From: Opitutia bacterium
GTDB lineage: Bacteria > Verrucomicrobiota > Verrucomicrobiia > Opitutales > T3Sed10-336
DNA: 34,505 nt
NCBI GenBank assembly: GCA_003558065.1
Contig: PWMU01000085.1
Span: forward strand, 1 to 34,505
Direction: 5' to 3'
Position numbers and translations under genes: made by a program. Of this stretch, positions 25,916 to 31,413 are shown piece by piece (position 1 is the stretch's first letter; each line of letters begins with the position of its first letter). A model generated the notes under the pieces. It saw only the letters and a program-made list of their open reading frames with translations, was not told the origin of the DNA and made no database searches.

Positions 25916-27370
25916 ATGACGATGCAACCAACGACCACACTCCATTTGAAAGCGGAAGCCCAACCTCCCCATGCCCGTTCCGGCCCCTTCCCTGCGCGGG
26001 CACGGCCGGCGTTCGCGCTCCTCGCGGCAGTCACCGCGGTCTTTATCCCGGCGACCCAGGCCGACGAAGGAACCGACTCGTTTCCGGGCCGCGAGTTCTG
26101 GTCCGACCCCGCCTTCGTCGACGGATTCATGGGCACCTATGGGTTCGCCACGGACATCGAGCCGAGCATCACCCGGTCGGAGCAGGAACTTCTCGGCGGG
26201 ATTGTCGAACTGATGGAAGATGATCCTCAGGCGGCGGCCGAGAAACTGGAAGGCGGGCTCACGGAAGGTTCCAGCGCGGCGCTGGACTTCGTACTGGGCA
26301 ACCTGCACTTCCAGTTGGACCAGCCCGATCGCGCCGCCGGTCATTATGAGAGAGCGCTTGAAAAGTTTCCCAATTTCATGCGGGCCCACAAGAACCTGGG
26401 CATGATCCGCGTGCGGCTGCGAGAGTTCGACCGGGCCGCGAGGGGCTTCACGAGGGCCATCGAACTCGGAGGGGGCGACGGAAACACGTACGGACTGCTG
26501 GGGCTCAGCCGCCTTAACGAGGAACGTTACCATTCCGCGGAAAGCGCCTACCGCATGGCGCTGCTGCACGACCCGGCGAACAGCCAGTGGAGACTGGGAA
26601 CCGCGCAGGTCCTGCTGGCCCAGGATCGCTACCGCGAAGCCAACAGTCTCTTGGAGGAATTGATCCGTGAGCATCCGGAACGGGCTGACTATTACCTCTA
26701 CCAGGCCAACGCCTACATCGGCATGGAGCAACCGCACCGGGCAGCGGCCAATTACGAACTCGTTCGCCGCCTGGGAGCCGCCACCCCGGAAAGTCTGGTG
26801 AACCTCGGCGACCTCTACCTGGAGGAAACTATCACCGACCTCGCTCTTGAAAGGTACCTGGAAGCGCTGGACCGCGATCCGCCCCTTCCGATCCGGCGCG
26901 CCCTCCGCACCGCCCGCATTCTGACCGAGCGCCATGCCTGGGACGAAGCCGCGGCTCTCGTCGAACGGATTGAAGGACGCAATGACGATGCGTCCAAAGG
27001 GGAAGCCGGACATGATTTGACCCGTCTAAGGGCCCGTATCCTGTTCGCAACCGGGGACGAAGAGGAGGCGGTCCGCAAGCTGGAACGAGTCGTGGAGAAA
27101 GACCCGTTCGACGGGCTCTCTCTGATCCTGCTCGCCCGTCATTACGGAGAGAAAGGGGAAAACGAACGGGCGGAACTCCTTTTCGAACGCGCGGCACGCG
27201 TGCCCGGCCACGAAGCCGAAGCCTACCTCCGCCACGCCGAATTGCTCGTTCGGGAGAAGCGACTGGAACGGGCGGCGGAACTTCTCCGGCGCTCTCAGCA
27301 ACTTCGCCCGCGGGACAGTGTTGCCCGGTACCTGGAACGAGTCGAAAGCGCCCTGCGTGCGGCGCGCTAA
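25916..27370 (+). CDS. TPR-repeat exported protein of the TonB block
   Basis: A 484-residue protein built mostly of tetratricopeptide repeats (about 95-480), for example LGNLHFQLDQPDRAAGHYERA and LLEELIREHPERADYYLYQA, followed by several more A/G/Y/A-spaced helix pairs. The N-terminus has a long n-region then a hydrophobic stretch (PAFALLAAVTAVFIPATQA), so it is probably exported. A TPR gene closes the comparable Vibrio/Shewanella loci, where it is proposed to aid TonB2 complex function. The frame opens at 25784 inside tonB; ATG 25916 is the first sensible start (25922 also possible). Confidence 0.85.
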   Translation: MTMQPTTTLHLKAEAQPPHARSGPFPARARPAFALLAAVTAVFIPATQADEGTDSFPGREFWSDPAFVDGFMGTYGFATDIEPSITRSEQELLGGIVELMEDDPQAAAEKLEGGLTEGSSAALDFVLGNLHFQLDQPDRAAGHYERALEKFPNFMRAHKNLGMIRVRLREFDRAARGFTRAIELGGGDGNTYGLLGLSRLNEERYHSAESAYRMALLHDPANSQWRLGTAQVLLAQDRYREANSLLEELIREHPERADYYLYQANAYIGMEQPHRAAANYELVRRLGAATPESLVNLGDLYLEETITDLALERYLEALDRDPPLPIRRALRTARILTERHAWDEAAALVERIEGRNDDASKGEAGHDLTRLRARILFATGDEEEAVRKLERVVEKDPFDGLSLILLARHYGEKGENERAELLFERAARVPGHEAEAYLRHAELLVREKRLERAAELLRRSQQLRPRDSVARYLERVESALRAAR

Positions 27371-27413
27371 CGGACACTGGACGTTTATAAATTCGCCTTT
27401 ATGTTCTTTTCCT

Positions 27414-27863
27414 ATGAAATGGAAAATTTACCTTGCCGGCGAAATCCACAGTTTCTGGCGGGAGGAGCTCAAGGAAGCCGCGACTGAAGCCGAGTTGCCG
27501 GTCGAGTTCTTCGCCCCGGTCACCGATCATGATGCGAGCGACCATTGCGGAACTCGAATTCTGGGCGAGGAGGACAAACCGTTTTGGCGGGATCACAAGG
27601 GTGCCAAACTCAACGCGATCCGCACCCGCCCTCTGCTCGAAAACGCCGACATCGTCGTGGTGCGCTTCGGTGACAAATACAAACAGTGGAACGCCGCCTT
27701 CGACGCCGGCTATGCAGCCGCGCTGGGTAAGCCGCTCATCGTCATCCACCCCGACGAACACACCCACGCCCTCAAGGAGATCGACGCCGCCGCGCTGGCG
27801 GTTGCCGAAAACGGACAACAGGTCGCGGAAATCCTGCGGTACGTAACGAGCAACACCTCATGA
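27414..27863 (+). CDS. ytoQ: YtoQ family protein
   Basis: A 149-residue cytoplasmic protein closely following the YtoQ family pattern: WKIYLAGEIHSFWREEL, FFAPVTDHDASDHCG, EEDKPFWRDHKGAKLNAIRTR, ADIVVVRFGDKYKQWNAAFD and AGYAAALGKPLIVIHPDEHTH. The Rossmann-like pattern recalls nucleoside 2-deoxyribosyltransferases and LOG-type nucleotide hydrolases, but activity is not established for YtoQ. The ATG at 27414 gives the family start; it follows TTTTCCT, no Shine-Dalgarno. The stop overlaps the ATP-grasp start by four bases (ATGA), so it heads a coupled trio. It is 43 bases after the TPR gene, with AT-rich sequence between that may contain a promoter. Confidence 0.92.
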   Translation: MKWKIYLAGEIHSFWREELKEAATEAELPVEFFAPVTDHDASDHCGTRILGEEDKPFWRDHKGAKLNAIRTRPLLENADIVVVRFGDKYKQWNAAFDAGYAAALGKPLIVIHPDEHTHALKEIDAAALAVAENGQQVAEILRYVTSNTS

Positions 27864-29224
27864 CGTCTCCCGAAAACGCCCTGAAGATCCGCCAACATCC
27901 CGGAATCCTTCCGGAATTCTGGGACAGGGAGGTTGTCTTTGTCGCCAATCTCCTGTCGTTGTTCTTCGGAAACGAACAGGAAACAGAACGGCTGCGGGAA
28001 GAAGTCGGCGCCCTGGAAAGCTACGGGGGCCGTCTGGTTCCCATCATCAACCTGCTCTTCGGCGGAAGCCGCAACCTCCTGGTGCTCGAACGGGACCCCG
28101 ATTACCGGTTATTGGCGTACTTCCGGAACAACCTCGGGTTGCGTCTGCCCGAAATCGAAATTCTGCCCCACGCGGAGTACAGCGGCAACAGGGAAACCGG
28201 GAGAACCCTCCGCTTCAAAACGGTTTTCGAGGCGATACGGAAACATCCCGCGGCCTGGATGGACGGTTTTGTGACCGAGGCACGGCTTGCCGAAAGCGCC
28301 CGTCTCACGGGCAAGCGGCTCATATCAACGGTTGAGGGGAGCAAGAACGGCAACAACAAGCTGTTGCTCCACCAACACCTCCGAGCCGCGGGACTCCCCT
28401 GTTTCGATGTACGGGTGGCGGAACGGCCCGGCGACATTCGCCGTTGCCTGCGCGATCTGAAGGACGCGGGCTATCGACAAGCGGTTGTCAAGGCGCAGAT
28501 CGGGGCTTCCGGAATAGGTATGAAGAAGGTGGATACCGAGTCGCCTGAAAGCATTCCGGAATACCTTTTCCATGAAGGCCCGTGTCTGGTCGAAGGATGG
28601 CTCGACGATTCGTTTGACGGCATAAAAGTACTGGGATCGCCGAGCGTTCAAATGTTCGTTCACGACGACTGCCTTCATCTTTACGACATCACCGCCCAAT
28701 TCCTGAATGCTGAAAGCGTTCACGAAGGCAACCAGGCGCCGCCCCCGTACTTGGAAACCTTGCCGGAGGTCCGTCACGAATTGCTCTCCCAGGCGACCGT
28801 TGGAGGACGCTGGTTGCATGGGCTCGGCTATCGGGGAACGGCGAGCGCGGATTTTCACTTGATCAAACGCGGGGAAAGCCCGGAAGTCCGTCTCTGCGAG
28901 ATCAATGCCCGCGTCACCGGAGCCACCTACCCCGCCATCCTGGCCCGGAATTTCGCCCCGGAGGGGGCCTGGATTATGCGAAACGTCCTGTTCACCGAAC
29001 CCCGGAAAAGCGACGAGGTCCTGCACGAATTCGAGCGGTCCGGAATGCTCTACCGCCCGGGAATAAACAAGGGAATTCTCCCTGTGAATTTCAATACCAG
29101 CGATGAAGGACTGGTCGTCAAAGCGCAACTGCTGGCCGTGGGAGGAAACCGACGCGAGGTGGAGTCGGTTTTCGACCTGATTCGCCGCCACCCCTCCATG
29201 ACCTGCGACTATGACCGGGATTGA
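27860..29224 (+). CDS. ATP-grasp ligase (PGM1-like), substrate unknown
   Basis: A 454-residue two-part enzyme. The N-terminal half (about 20-150) is a Rossmann-like pre-ATP-grasp region (REVVFVANLLSLFFGNEQE, NLLVLERDPDYRLLAYFRNN). The C-terminal ATP-grasp fold has Lys211 and the Gly-rich loop KAQIGASGIG, Glu245 in LVEGW, Asp331 in TASADFHLI, and the metal-binding CEINAR (Glu347, Asn349) near the end. These enzymes join a carboxylate to an amine using ATP through an acyl phosphate. The closest named type I can think of is the peptide ligase PGM1 of pheganomycin synthesis, on layout only. Coupled to ytoQ and overlapping the M20 gene by 14 bases. Confidence 0.85.
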   Translation: MTSPENALKIRQHPGILPEFWDREVVFVANLLSLFFGNEQETERLREEVGALESYGGRLVPIINLLFGGSRNLLVLERDPDYRLLAYFRNNLGLRLPEIEILPHAEYSGNRETGRTLRFKTVFEAIRKHPAAWMDGFVTEARLAESARLTGKRLISTVEGSKNGNNKLLLHQHLRAAGLPCFDVRVAERPGDIRRCLRDLKDAGYRQAVVKAQIGASGIGMKKVDTESPESIPEYLFHEGPCLVEGWLDDSFDGIKVLGSPSVQMFVHDDCLHLYDITAQFLNAESVHEGNQAPPPYLETLPEVRHELLSQATVGGRWLHGLGYRGTASADFHLIKRGESPEVRLCEINARVTGATYPAILARNFAPEGAWIMRNVLFTEPRKSDEVLHEFERSGMLYRPGINKGILPVNFNTSDEGLVVKAQLLAVGGNRREVESVFDLIRRHPSMTCDYDRD

Positions 29225-30347
29225 TTCCAGGGAGGACGAATCGCTGAAACAGCGTCTCATTTCATTGACGCGCGACCTGATGCTGATGCCGGGCAGCGCG
29301 TCGCGCCCGGAGGAGCGCGAACGCTGCTACGAATTCATCAAGAACCACTTCGACACCCTGAGAACCGTCGAGAGCCGCGAATACCGGGACAACGGCATCC
29401 CGTCGTTGGTGGCGCTGCCATCCGGGTTCGAAACCCCGGATGTCCTGTTGTGCGGCCACCTCGACGTCGTCGACCACGCAACGACGGATTCCTACCATTC
29501 CAGGCTCGAAAACGACCGCATCCACGGCCCGGGCGCCGGGGACATGAAGGGCCCGCTCGCTATCATGCTGGAACTGTTTCACCACATGCACACCCGGTAC
29601 GAAGGCGCGTCGCTTGGTATCGCAATCACCGCCGATGAAGAGACCGGCGGCATGCACGGAACCGGTTACCTTTTCGGGAGGGAAGGCCTGCGGTGCGGAT
29701 TGGCAATGATTCCCGACGGGGGATCGCTCAATCGCATCACTGTCGAAGAGAAGGGTATTCTGCACCTTGAGCTGCGATGCGGCGGCAACCCCGGACATGC
29801 AGCCCGCCCCTGGCTGGGAGTCAATCCGGTCGAATCGTTGGTCGCTCGTCTGGACAACCTCCGAAAAGCATTTTCATCACGGTGGCCAGCCGACGGCGGG
29901 GAACACTGGCACCCGACCTGCGCGACCACGCGGATCGGGACTCCGAATCAAACGATCAACGCGATCCCCTCAGAGGCCCATGCCACCCTTGACATACGTT
30001 TTCCGGCCCCGTACACGGTCGAGCAGCTACGCAGCTTCGTCGAGGAAACCCTGGGCCCGGACGTGGACGTTTCCACATTAATCAGCGCGGAACCCGTCCA
30101 CCTGGCACCGGAGGAAACCTACCGGCGGATCACCGAAGAAATCACCGGAAAGCCGGCCGAGTTTGTTCGCGGGCACGGCGGGAGCGACGCCCGCTTCATC
30201 TGTCATCTTGGCATACCGGTCATCATGTCGCGTCCCCTGATGGGCAACCTCCACGCCCCGGACGAGTGGATCGACGCCACGTCCATGGTCTCTTTTTACC
30301 GCATCTACGAGCGGTACCTGCACTGCAAACTGGGCCTGGACCAATAA
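29211..30347 (+). CDS. M20-family metallo-amidohydrolase / peptidase
   Basis: A 378-residue di-zinc hydrolase of the M20 (ArgE/DapE/CPG2) family, cytoplasmic by lack of a signal. Zinc and catalytic residues are all present: His83 and Asp85 in CGHLDVVD, Asp111 in GAGDMKGP, Glu143/Glu144 in ADEETGG, Asp169 in IPDGG, and His348 in NLHAPDEW. The lid domain has GHAARPWLGVNP and the usual GGSDARFI lies near the C-terminus. Such enzymes cut N-acyl amino acids, dipeptides or succinyl-diaminopimelate. The substrate is not readable here. It overlaps the ATP-grasp gene by 14 bases, so the ligase and hydrolase are made together. Confidence 0.93.
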   Translation: MTGIDSREDESLKQRLISLTRDLMLMPGSASRPEERERCYEFIKNHFDTLRTVESREYRDNGIPSLVALPSGFETPDVLLCGHLDVVDHATTDSYHSRLENDRIHGPGAGDMKGPLAIMLELFHHMHTRYEGASLGIAITADEETGGMHGTGYLFGREGLRCGLAMIPDGGSLNRITVEEKGILHLELRCGGNPGHAARPWLGVNPVESLVARLDNLRKAFSSRWPADGGEHWHPTCATTRIGTPNQTINAIPSEAHATLDIRFPAPYTVEQLRSFVEETLGPDVDVSTLISAEPVHLAPEETYRRITEEITGKPAEFVRGHGGSDARFICHLGIPVIMSRPLMGNLHAPDEWIDATSMVSFYRIYERYLHCKLGLDQ

Positions 30348-30351
30348 AGCC

Positions 30352-30543
30352 TCATGGGTGCACCTGCTCTCCATCGCGCACAATGACCGGCTCAGAATGG
30401 CGCGGCTGAAAATCAGTGGTTTCCGCAGCGTTATCCCGAGTGCTGAAGCTGAAGGTGCAACCCCCGGCATAGGCGGTCGTGACCATGGCGGCCGCCAGGA
30501 AATAGAACAACACCGTCTGGATTATTTTGATCAACCGCGTCAT
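30352..30543 (-). CDS. Small secreted protein (63 residues)
   Basis: The ATG at 30543 opens a 63-residue frame with a convincing signal peptide: basic TRLIK, hydrophobic IIQTVLFYFLAAAMVTT, and AYA|GG as a type I site, or AGGC as a weak lipobox. The mature part (GGCTFSFSTRDNAAETT and so on) is short and polar with a single Cys. There is no Shine-Dalgarno sequence. It ends four bases from the M20 gene (convergent) and is divergent from the DUF445 gene. No family is recognised; protein-like composition and the signal peptide support it. Confidence 0.5.
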   Translation of the reverse strand: MTRLIKIIQTVLFYFLAAAMVTTAYAGGCTFSFSTRDNAAETTDFQPRHSEPVIVRDGEQVHP

Positions 30544-30596
30544 TCTCTATTCGTTTGAGACAGCGAAAACCGCTCCGGGTTCACCCGCTCCTCACT

Positions 30597-30602
30597 TACA
30601 CT
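30597..30602 (+). promoter_or_regulatory. Candidate -10 TACACT of the DUF445 gene
   Basis: TACACT ends six bases before the DUF445 ATG, a TANNNT spacing known from leaderless genes of Deinococcus and actinobacteria. No -35 is seen. Confidence 0.3.
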
Positions 30603-30608
30603 TTTCCC

Positions 30609-31226
30609 ATGACCTGGATTTTTCTGCTCTCGCTTCCGCTTATGACCGCTTTCATCGGCTGGCTGACGAACCTGGTGGCCATCAAGATGCTGTTCCGCCC
30701 CAAGGAGGGGATCACGGTGTTGGGCTACACCTGGCAGGGGATCATTCCGAAAAGGCAGAAGGACCTTGCCGCGCGCACGGCCGTCATAATCGAAAAGGAA
30801 CTTTTGGGCAGTAAGCTTCTGGAGCAGCAGATCCGGAAAATCGACTTGAAACCCTACCTCCGCGATTACGCACGCAAACTCGTCCAGGAGGGACTGGGAG
30901 ACAAACTACGGCGCATCCCGGTTTTCGGCGGATTTGCGAATTCGTCGACTCTGATAAGGCTGGAAAGGATCCTGACCGAAGAGATGCAGAAACAGGCCAC
31001 TCCCCTGCTGCATCAGTTGTCCCGCGAAGTCGAACACCACATCCCGGTACGAAGCCTGGTGGAGGAAAAGATCGGGGACCTTGACGTGGAAAAGCTCGAG
31101 GAGATCGTCAACAAAGTCGCACAGAAAGAATTCAGATCCATCGAGCTACTCGGCGGAGTGCTCGGCTTCATTGTCGGACTGGCCCAGTTGCTGGTGCTGT
31201 TTCTGACCGGGAATCTGGATCTGTGA
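30609..31226 (+). CDS. DUF445 (YheB-like) membrane protein
   Basis: A 205-residue DUF445 protein. A membrane helix lies at about 3-25 (IFLLSLPLMTAFIGWLTNLV), followed by the family signature VAIKMLFRPKEG and a GWQGIIP-like turn (TWQGIIPKRQKDLA). A helical cytoplasmic or periplasmic region follows, then a second membrane helix near the C-terminus (LLGGVLGFIVGLAQLLVLFL). Members of this family are membrane proteins of unknown function, some with roles at the cell surface in Bacillus. The frame is open upstream, but the ATG at 30609 fits the family start. It converges on menB with a 187-base spacer. Confidence 0.88.
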   Translation: MTWIFLLSLPLMTAFIGWLTNLVAIKMLFRPKEGITVLGYTWQGIIPKRQKDLAARTAVIIEKELLGSKLLEQQIRKIDLKPYLRDYARKLVQEGLGDKLRRIPVFGGFANSSTLIRLERILTEEMQKQATPLLHQLSREVEHHIPVRSLVEEKIGDLDVEKLEEIVNKVAQKEFRSIELLGGVLGFIVGLAQLLVLFLTGNLDL

Positions 31227-31250
31227 CCAGGAGGACCTCTGGTGTCTTTT
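31226..31250 (+). terminator. Weak terminator-like hairpin after the DUF445 gene
   Basis: ACCAG (31226-31230) pairs with CTGGT (31239-31243), followed by GTCTTTT. The stem is only five bases, so this is weak. The rest of the 31227-31413 spacer shows nothing else I can name. Confidence 0.25.
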
Positions 31251-31413
31251 CATTAAACCTTCGCGTTCATGTCGATTGGCGGGGGATACAAACTCCGCGC
31301 GGCGCGCCGGAGAGTACGGCGCCTCGAAAGGAGGGCTCACCCCTTGTTTTTCCCGGGACCCATTCTCCGCGTCGCCCCGGCTCGCGTCAAACGACCGACG
31401 CGGCACCGTCGCC

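Follow-up and report, generated by a model that had tools for sequence, protein, structure and literature searches.

An ATP-grasp gene and an M20 gene form a conserved bacterial pair that may make and break a small dipeptide

Why would a bacterium encode a likely amide-forming enzyme and a probable amide-breaking enzyme in overlapping genes, and does the gene in front of them take part? The question is raised by a 34,505-nucleotide stretch of an Opitutia genome (Verrucomicrobiota; contig PWMU01000085.1), called here the window, in which a YtoQ-family gene, an ATP-grasp gene and an M20 gene run in one direction. An earlier note on this DNA had proposed that the three act together, either in a cycle on a small amide or in synthesis followed by trimming. 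Analysis of the sequence reproduced all three genes on the + strand at the stated coordinates, with overlaps of 4 bases (YtoQ/ATP-grasp) and 14 bases (ATP-grasp/M20) (Table 1). The YtoQ protein scores above the cut-off of its family model and has a nucleoside 2-deoxyribosyltransferase fold. The flanks of the locus encode a TPR protein upstream and a DUF445 protein, followed by menB and menD, downstream. No RNA elements were found in the window, consensus promoter and terminator scans of positions 26900-31400 gave nothing useful, and a PADLOC search for anti-phage defence returned no match.

Table 1. Coordinates of the features discussed, as positions in the window
Feature	Positions	Strand	Basis and remarks
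YtoQ-family protein, 149 aa	27414-27863	+	TIGR03646 (220.7 bits, cut-off 155.35), PF11071 (1.2e-65), PDB 8of6 (3.5e-38); neighbour in the window genome, outside the conserved unit
ATP-grasp protein, 454 aa, putative ligase of PGM1/BesA/L-amino-acid-ligase type	27860-29224	+	First gene of the pair; fold, invariant residues
M20 di-zinc hydrolase, 378 aa, predicted dipeptidase	29211-30347	+	Second gene of the pair; PF01546 (85.1 bits, cut-off 24.6), PF07687 (50.4 bits, cut-off 21)
14-base overlap	29211-29224	+	Encodes YDRD-stop at the end of the ligase and MTGI at the start of the M20 protein
DUF445 protein, short	30609-31226		205 aa against a 368-position model; directly downstream of the M20 gene

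Conservation of the pair across phyla

In a survey of the phylum, the ATP-grasp protein was present in 5 of 241 genomes, the window's own included, and in all eight loci obtained from this and a family survey, again counting the window, an M20 gene lies directly behind the ATP-grasp gene. A contig scan with the single ATP-grasp sequence yielded nothing; the alignment-based scan found the loci. Profile scanning of one genome per species gave 74 ATP-grasp loci, from Verrucomicrobiota, Kiritimatiellota, Lentisphaerota, Planctomycetota (Scalindua, Rhodopirellula and others), Omnitrophota, Hydrogenedentota, Binatota and similar bins, and Nitrospirota, and 72 full or partial loci were analysed. Weak profile matches in Planctomycetota, Nitrospirota and the phylum of genome G288, with E values between 1e-4 and 1e-9, were taken as generic ATP-grasp proteins, because a gap from about 1e-166 to 1e-9 separates them from the rest.

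Two of the 72 loci end at a contig edge downstream of the ATP-grasp gene. In every one of the 70 loci with room downstream, from at least seven phyla, the next gene encodes the M20 protein. The two genes lie within 110 bases of each other in 62 of these 70 pairs and overlap by exactly 14 bases in 22, among them pairs from Nitrospirota, Planctomycetota, Omnitrophota and Binatota; the recurrence of one length in several phyla, together with the generally short distance, argues that the overlap is not due to chance. In all 22 pairs the ligase ends in YDRD-stop and the M20 protein begins with M-T, and since they include a deep Nitrospirota branch the overlap may be old. Arg-Asp, the final two residues of the ligase, is nearly invariant also in pairs without an overlap, so this C-terminus may have a function of its own, beyond being a by-product of the overlap.

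The two proteins also vary together: distances among 64 ligases correlate with those among their 64 partner M20 proteins (r = 0.85, Mantel p <= 0.001), and in Planctomycetota the two families independently match the same 2 of 246 genomes. No third conserved neighbour was found among ORFs of at least 80 aa, the largest real clusters comprising four loci and being lineage-specific. An apparent neighbour cluster in 20 loci was discarded, as it consisted of minus-strand ORFs overlapping the pair itself. Judged by eye, four related Planctomycetota genomes, Rhodopirellula and relatives (L064, L067, L071 and L081), and only those four, have a 2-phosphosulfolactate phosphatase-like gene immediately upstream of the pair. 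The ligase tree mixes phyla, with 8 label changes for Verrucomicrobiota and 5 for Planctomycetota; this fits transfer of the pair as a block, within the limits set by uneven sampling and misbinned contigs. Searches for carriage of the pair on plasmids and phages gave no match. The functional unit is thus the two-gene pair at 27860-30347, with YtoQ excluded; of the linkage first proposed for this locus, the part joining ligase and hydrolase is strongly supported by adjacency, co-occurrence, correlated distances and the pocket change described below, and the part adding YtoQ as a third member is not.

Folds and conserved residues of the two proteins

Scored by itself, the ATP-grasp protein stays below every curated Pfam and NCBIfam cut-off. 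The pre-ATP-grasp domain PF18604 scores 14.7 bits, below its cut-off of 27.5, and is matched by 46 of 66 homologues (best 1.6e-7); PGM1_C is matched by three of the 66, and the best PDB sequence match of the protein is PGM1, at an E value of 0.012. The earlier note had suggested comparing both proteins by structure prediction. The AlphaFold2 model of the ligase (mean pLDDT 93) ranks PGM1 first (VIA Z 32.5 over 385 residues), followed by the Streptomyces peptide ligase 8ynd (30.7), BesA (28.8 over 391 residues) and SAOUHSC_02373 (27.7), after which the score drops to about 23 (PurK). The fold of the model is clearly ATP-grasp, and in its combination of pre-ATP-grasp and ATP-grasp domains it lies closest to PGM1 and BesA. 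All four leading neighbours join amino acids or peptides, according to their records or to NCBIfam (NF047900, NF042917). Residues K167, G215-G218, D331, E347, N349 and R351 are invariant in the 66 homologues; from general knowledge of ATP-grasp enzymes, we assume that they bind ATP and metal. Given amide-forming structural neighbours and invariant catalytic residues, the protein likely performs ATP-dependent amide formation.

The M20 protein carries both Pfam domains of its family above cut-off and passes no curated equivalog model. Its five metal ligands and catalytic glutamate (H83, D111, E143, E144, D169, H348) are present in all 67 paired copies, where D85 is likewise kept among the metal and catalytic residues. 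The best structural match of its model (mean pLDDT 94.9) is 2rb7, followed by DapE enzymes, with carnosinases (including carnosinase-2), PepT and LysK lower; overall sequence and the Foldseek ranking likewise put it nearer DapE deacylases than carnosinases. The second zinc-site ligand, position 169, is Asp in 67 of 67 paired copies, as in M20 enzymes of the dipeptidase and aminopeptidase type (carnosinase, PepV). According to the review PMC6271292, which cites Lindner et al., this ligand is Asp in all homologues with proven aminopeptidase or dipeptidase activity and Glu in aminoacylases and carboxypeptidases, and carnosinase has D228 at the position equivalent to Asp169 (PMC4723063). Asp169 thus favours a dipeptide substrate whose amino end is free, the kind of product expected of such a ligase. 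Mainly from this one metal-ligand residue, we consider that the M20 protein is probably a dipeptidase.

A survey that begins with the M20 protein avoids selecting for the ligase. Such a survey of the phylum found relatives in five genomes, with two copies lacking a ligase (that of G066 and a second copy in G188), and a further one, begun from an unpaired copy and covering 142 genomes of the order, found 24 copies, of which 22 adjoin a ligase; the exceptions were the same two. Both unpaired copies (loci L101:5935-9042 and L102:7297-10331) lie in divergent orientation beside two transglutaminase-like genes with a Transglut_core domain, one of which also has Bact_transglu_N; these M20 paralogues may belong to another amide-handling system, acting on a different substrate.

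The unpaired copies keep H83, D85, D111, E143, E144, D169 and H348, and in both of them R199 is replaced by Ala, R328 by Leu and R341 by Ser. Among paired copies, R199 and R328 are found in 67 of 67 and R341 in 66 of 67, and in the order survey every paired copy that covers the sites has all three. In an alignment with DapE these arginines fall next to the oxyanion histidine stretch, within the SDxRF stretch and immediately ahead of the last metal histidine, which places them around the substrate pocket. Since they are lost where the ligase is absent, the M20 pocket goes with the ligase and, on this residue pattern, appears fitted to the ligase product, which would probably be acidic, with negative charge beyond one carboxylate. 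The contrast comes from two unpaired copies of one family that are related to each other, and the link between the arginines and the ligase product is a lead, not proof. The three arginines offer a testable specificity code for M20 enzymes.

A proposed cycle and its alternatives

We consider it rather probable that the pair is a self-contained make-and-break cycle acting on a small, probably acidic dipeptide. The ATP-grasp enzyme would spend ATP to activate one amino acid or small acid at its carboxylate as an acyl phosphate, which would be joined to the amino group of a second amino acid to give the dipeptide, and the co-translated M20 di-zinc enzyme would hydrolyse the same amide. One transcript would then set both production and removal, and the level of the dipeptide would depend on ATP, on the supply of amino acids and on how active each enzyme is relative to the other. 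YtoQ, placed in front of the pair in the window lineage only, would not be needed. We infer both that the product is a dipeptide and that the M20 enzyme acts on the ligase's own product. Several observations weigh against the cycle: the ATP-grasp protein falls short of the cut-off of every curated family, the M20 protein is nearer to DapE deacylases than to carnosinases overall, and the arginine argument derives from two related copies; a conserved pair is also compatible with a two-step route, the hydrolase cleaving a different bond either ahead of the ligase step or following it.

A wider reading, to which we give about even chances, is that of a mobile two-gene cassette, found throughout the Planctomycetota-Verrucomicrobiota group and also in Binatota and Nitrospirota, which would run a metabolite cycle not described before and make and degrade an anionic dipeptide serving as osmolyte, reserve or signal. 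Many source records seem to us to be saline or alkaline (soda-lake sediment, seawater, marine anammox), and others are from soil; that the dipeptide acts as an osmolyte is a guess. Should the product be a solute or reserve, it would represent a new compound class for poorly known, abundant marine and sediment bacteria. As this is a strict ligase-hydrolase pair with no other conserved gene, two proteins should give the whole metabolite pathway, and since cultured carriers exist (Rhodopirellula rubra, Rubripirellula obstinata, Aporhodopirellula aestuarii and Luteolibacter marinus) the product can be sought directly.

The other possibility raised in the earlier note, synthesis followed by trimming, appears unlikely next to the cycle. 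Here the ligase would make a longer or protected conjugate, from which the M20 enzyme would remove one group to give the final product. ATP-grasp plus M20 is indeed the combination of LysX and LysK, in which LysK releases lysine from LysW after loading by LysX; rimK/LysX-type models give weak matches in the ATP-grasp family (the LysX model in 9 of 66 members, best 3.8e-4), and LysK is among the structural matches of the M20 protein. Against this, the M20 protein scores 50.1 bits with the [LysW]-lysine hydrolase model NF003367, whose cut-off is 363, Asp169 points to a substrate with a free amino terminus and not to a deacylase, and no further biosynthetic gene is conserved near the pair among ORFs of at least 80 aa, a size limit that smaller carriers encoded elsewhere, such as a LysW of 54 aa, would escape.

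More doubtful still is a housekeeping role, in which the ligase would properly make a secondary metabolite and the M20 enzyme would clear away or edit its incorrect or surplus products. The nearest solved ligases, PGM1 and BesA, do come from natural-product pathways, but the surroundings of the pair show no conserved biosynthetic cluster, transporter or precursor peptide, and the M20 gene is kept as strictly as the ligase gene.

That all three genes form one functional unit, with YtoQ as supplier or user of a nucleoside or ribosyl group, is very improbable. The 4-base overlap and common direction in the window speak for it, but this overlap was seen in the window genome only, and among the eight loci of the phylum and family surveys YtoQ precedes the pair in the window alone. 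YtoQ adjoins the pair in none of the 72 homologous loci, 62 of which extend at least 1.5 kb upstream, and is found anywhere in the genome in 3 of 35 pair-bearing genomes. The earlier note would have the cluster be an accident of this genome if the three families were rarely adjacent elsewhere, and for YtoQ this is the case. A sister species of the same genus that has both carries YtoQ on another contig, beside unrelated genes. This relative (L014) shares with the window the downstream order of DUF445, menB and menD but not the upstream order, suggesting a local arrangement of YtoQ and the TPR gene in the window lineage; at L014:780-1600, upstream of its ligase and on the opposite strand, a gamma-glutamyltransferase-like gene was recognised by eye. 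YtoQ is a neighbour in the window genome and not part of the conserved unit: the trio is refuted as a general rule, and a lineage-specific role in the window species is possible. Least credible is that the M20 protein is a standard DapE or ArgE from the lysine or arginine pathway, with an incidental ligase next to it, since, although 66 of 66 M20 copies match DapE/ArgE models at E values below 1e-20, the scores lie far under the curated cut-offs (101.9 against 361.8 for TIGR01246, dapE_proteo; 153.1 against 381 for NF006399), the family occurs in about 2% of the genomes of the phylum survey, and it is nearly always paired with the ligase.

Comparison with known systems

In a literature search of incomplete coverage we found no described ATP-grasp/M20 pair, in agreement with the earlier note, which knew of no pathway with this gene set. 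The N-acetylglutaminylglutamine amide osmolyte system, which has an asparagine-synthase-like partner and an M42-family peptidase, was considered and rejected, as the hydrolase here is M20 by Pfam and there is no conserved third gene. LysX-LysW-LysK brings an ATP-grasp ligase and an M20 hydrolase into one system; it requires the LysW carrier protein, whereas the proteins of the pair reach neither the LysX nor the LysK models.

For the single proteins, the closest solved M20 structure is 2rb7, a metallopeptidase of Desulfovibrio G20 (30% identity, TM 0.85), which has the ligand Asp and two of the arginines in common with the M20 protein and does not conserve the third. PGM1, the pheganomycin peptide ligase, and BesA, a propargylglycine-glutamate ligase, have the fold and domain order of the ligase model, and the EHNGRATGST stretch of PGM1 aligns with EINARVTGAT of the ligase; identity is 16-20%, and in place of a natural-product cluster there is here an M20 partner. 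The Staphylococcus aureus protein SAOUHSC_02373 (7r8q) is a stand-alone amino-acid ligase of the same fold, at 12-13% identity to the ligase. We take it to be LdmS, the L-aspartate-L-methionine ligase of NF047900, a model matched weakly by 2 of 66 members of the ATP-grasp family.

Both protein superfamilies are known, as are ligase/hydrolase cycles in animals; what is new, as far as the searchable literature goes, is the bicistronic bacterial pair. The best known parallel, by analogy, would be carnosine synthase and carnosinase of vertebrates (CARNS1/ATPGD1 and CNDP1/2). CARNS1 is an ATP-grasp enzyme. The vertebrate genes are unlinked and separately expressed, whereas those of the bacterial pair overlap, and the two bacterial proteins are not closely related to their vertebrate counterparts. 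As would be the case in the proposed cycle, an ATP-dependent ligase makes a dipeptide that an M20 di-zinc enzyme breaks, and carnosinase has Asp at the same zinc-ligand position as the M20 protein described here.
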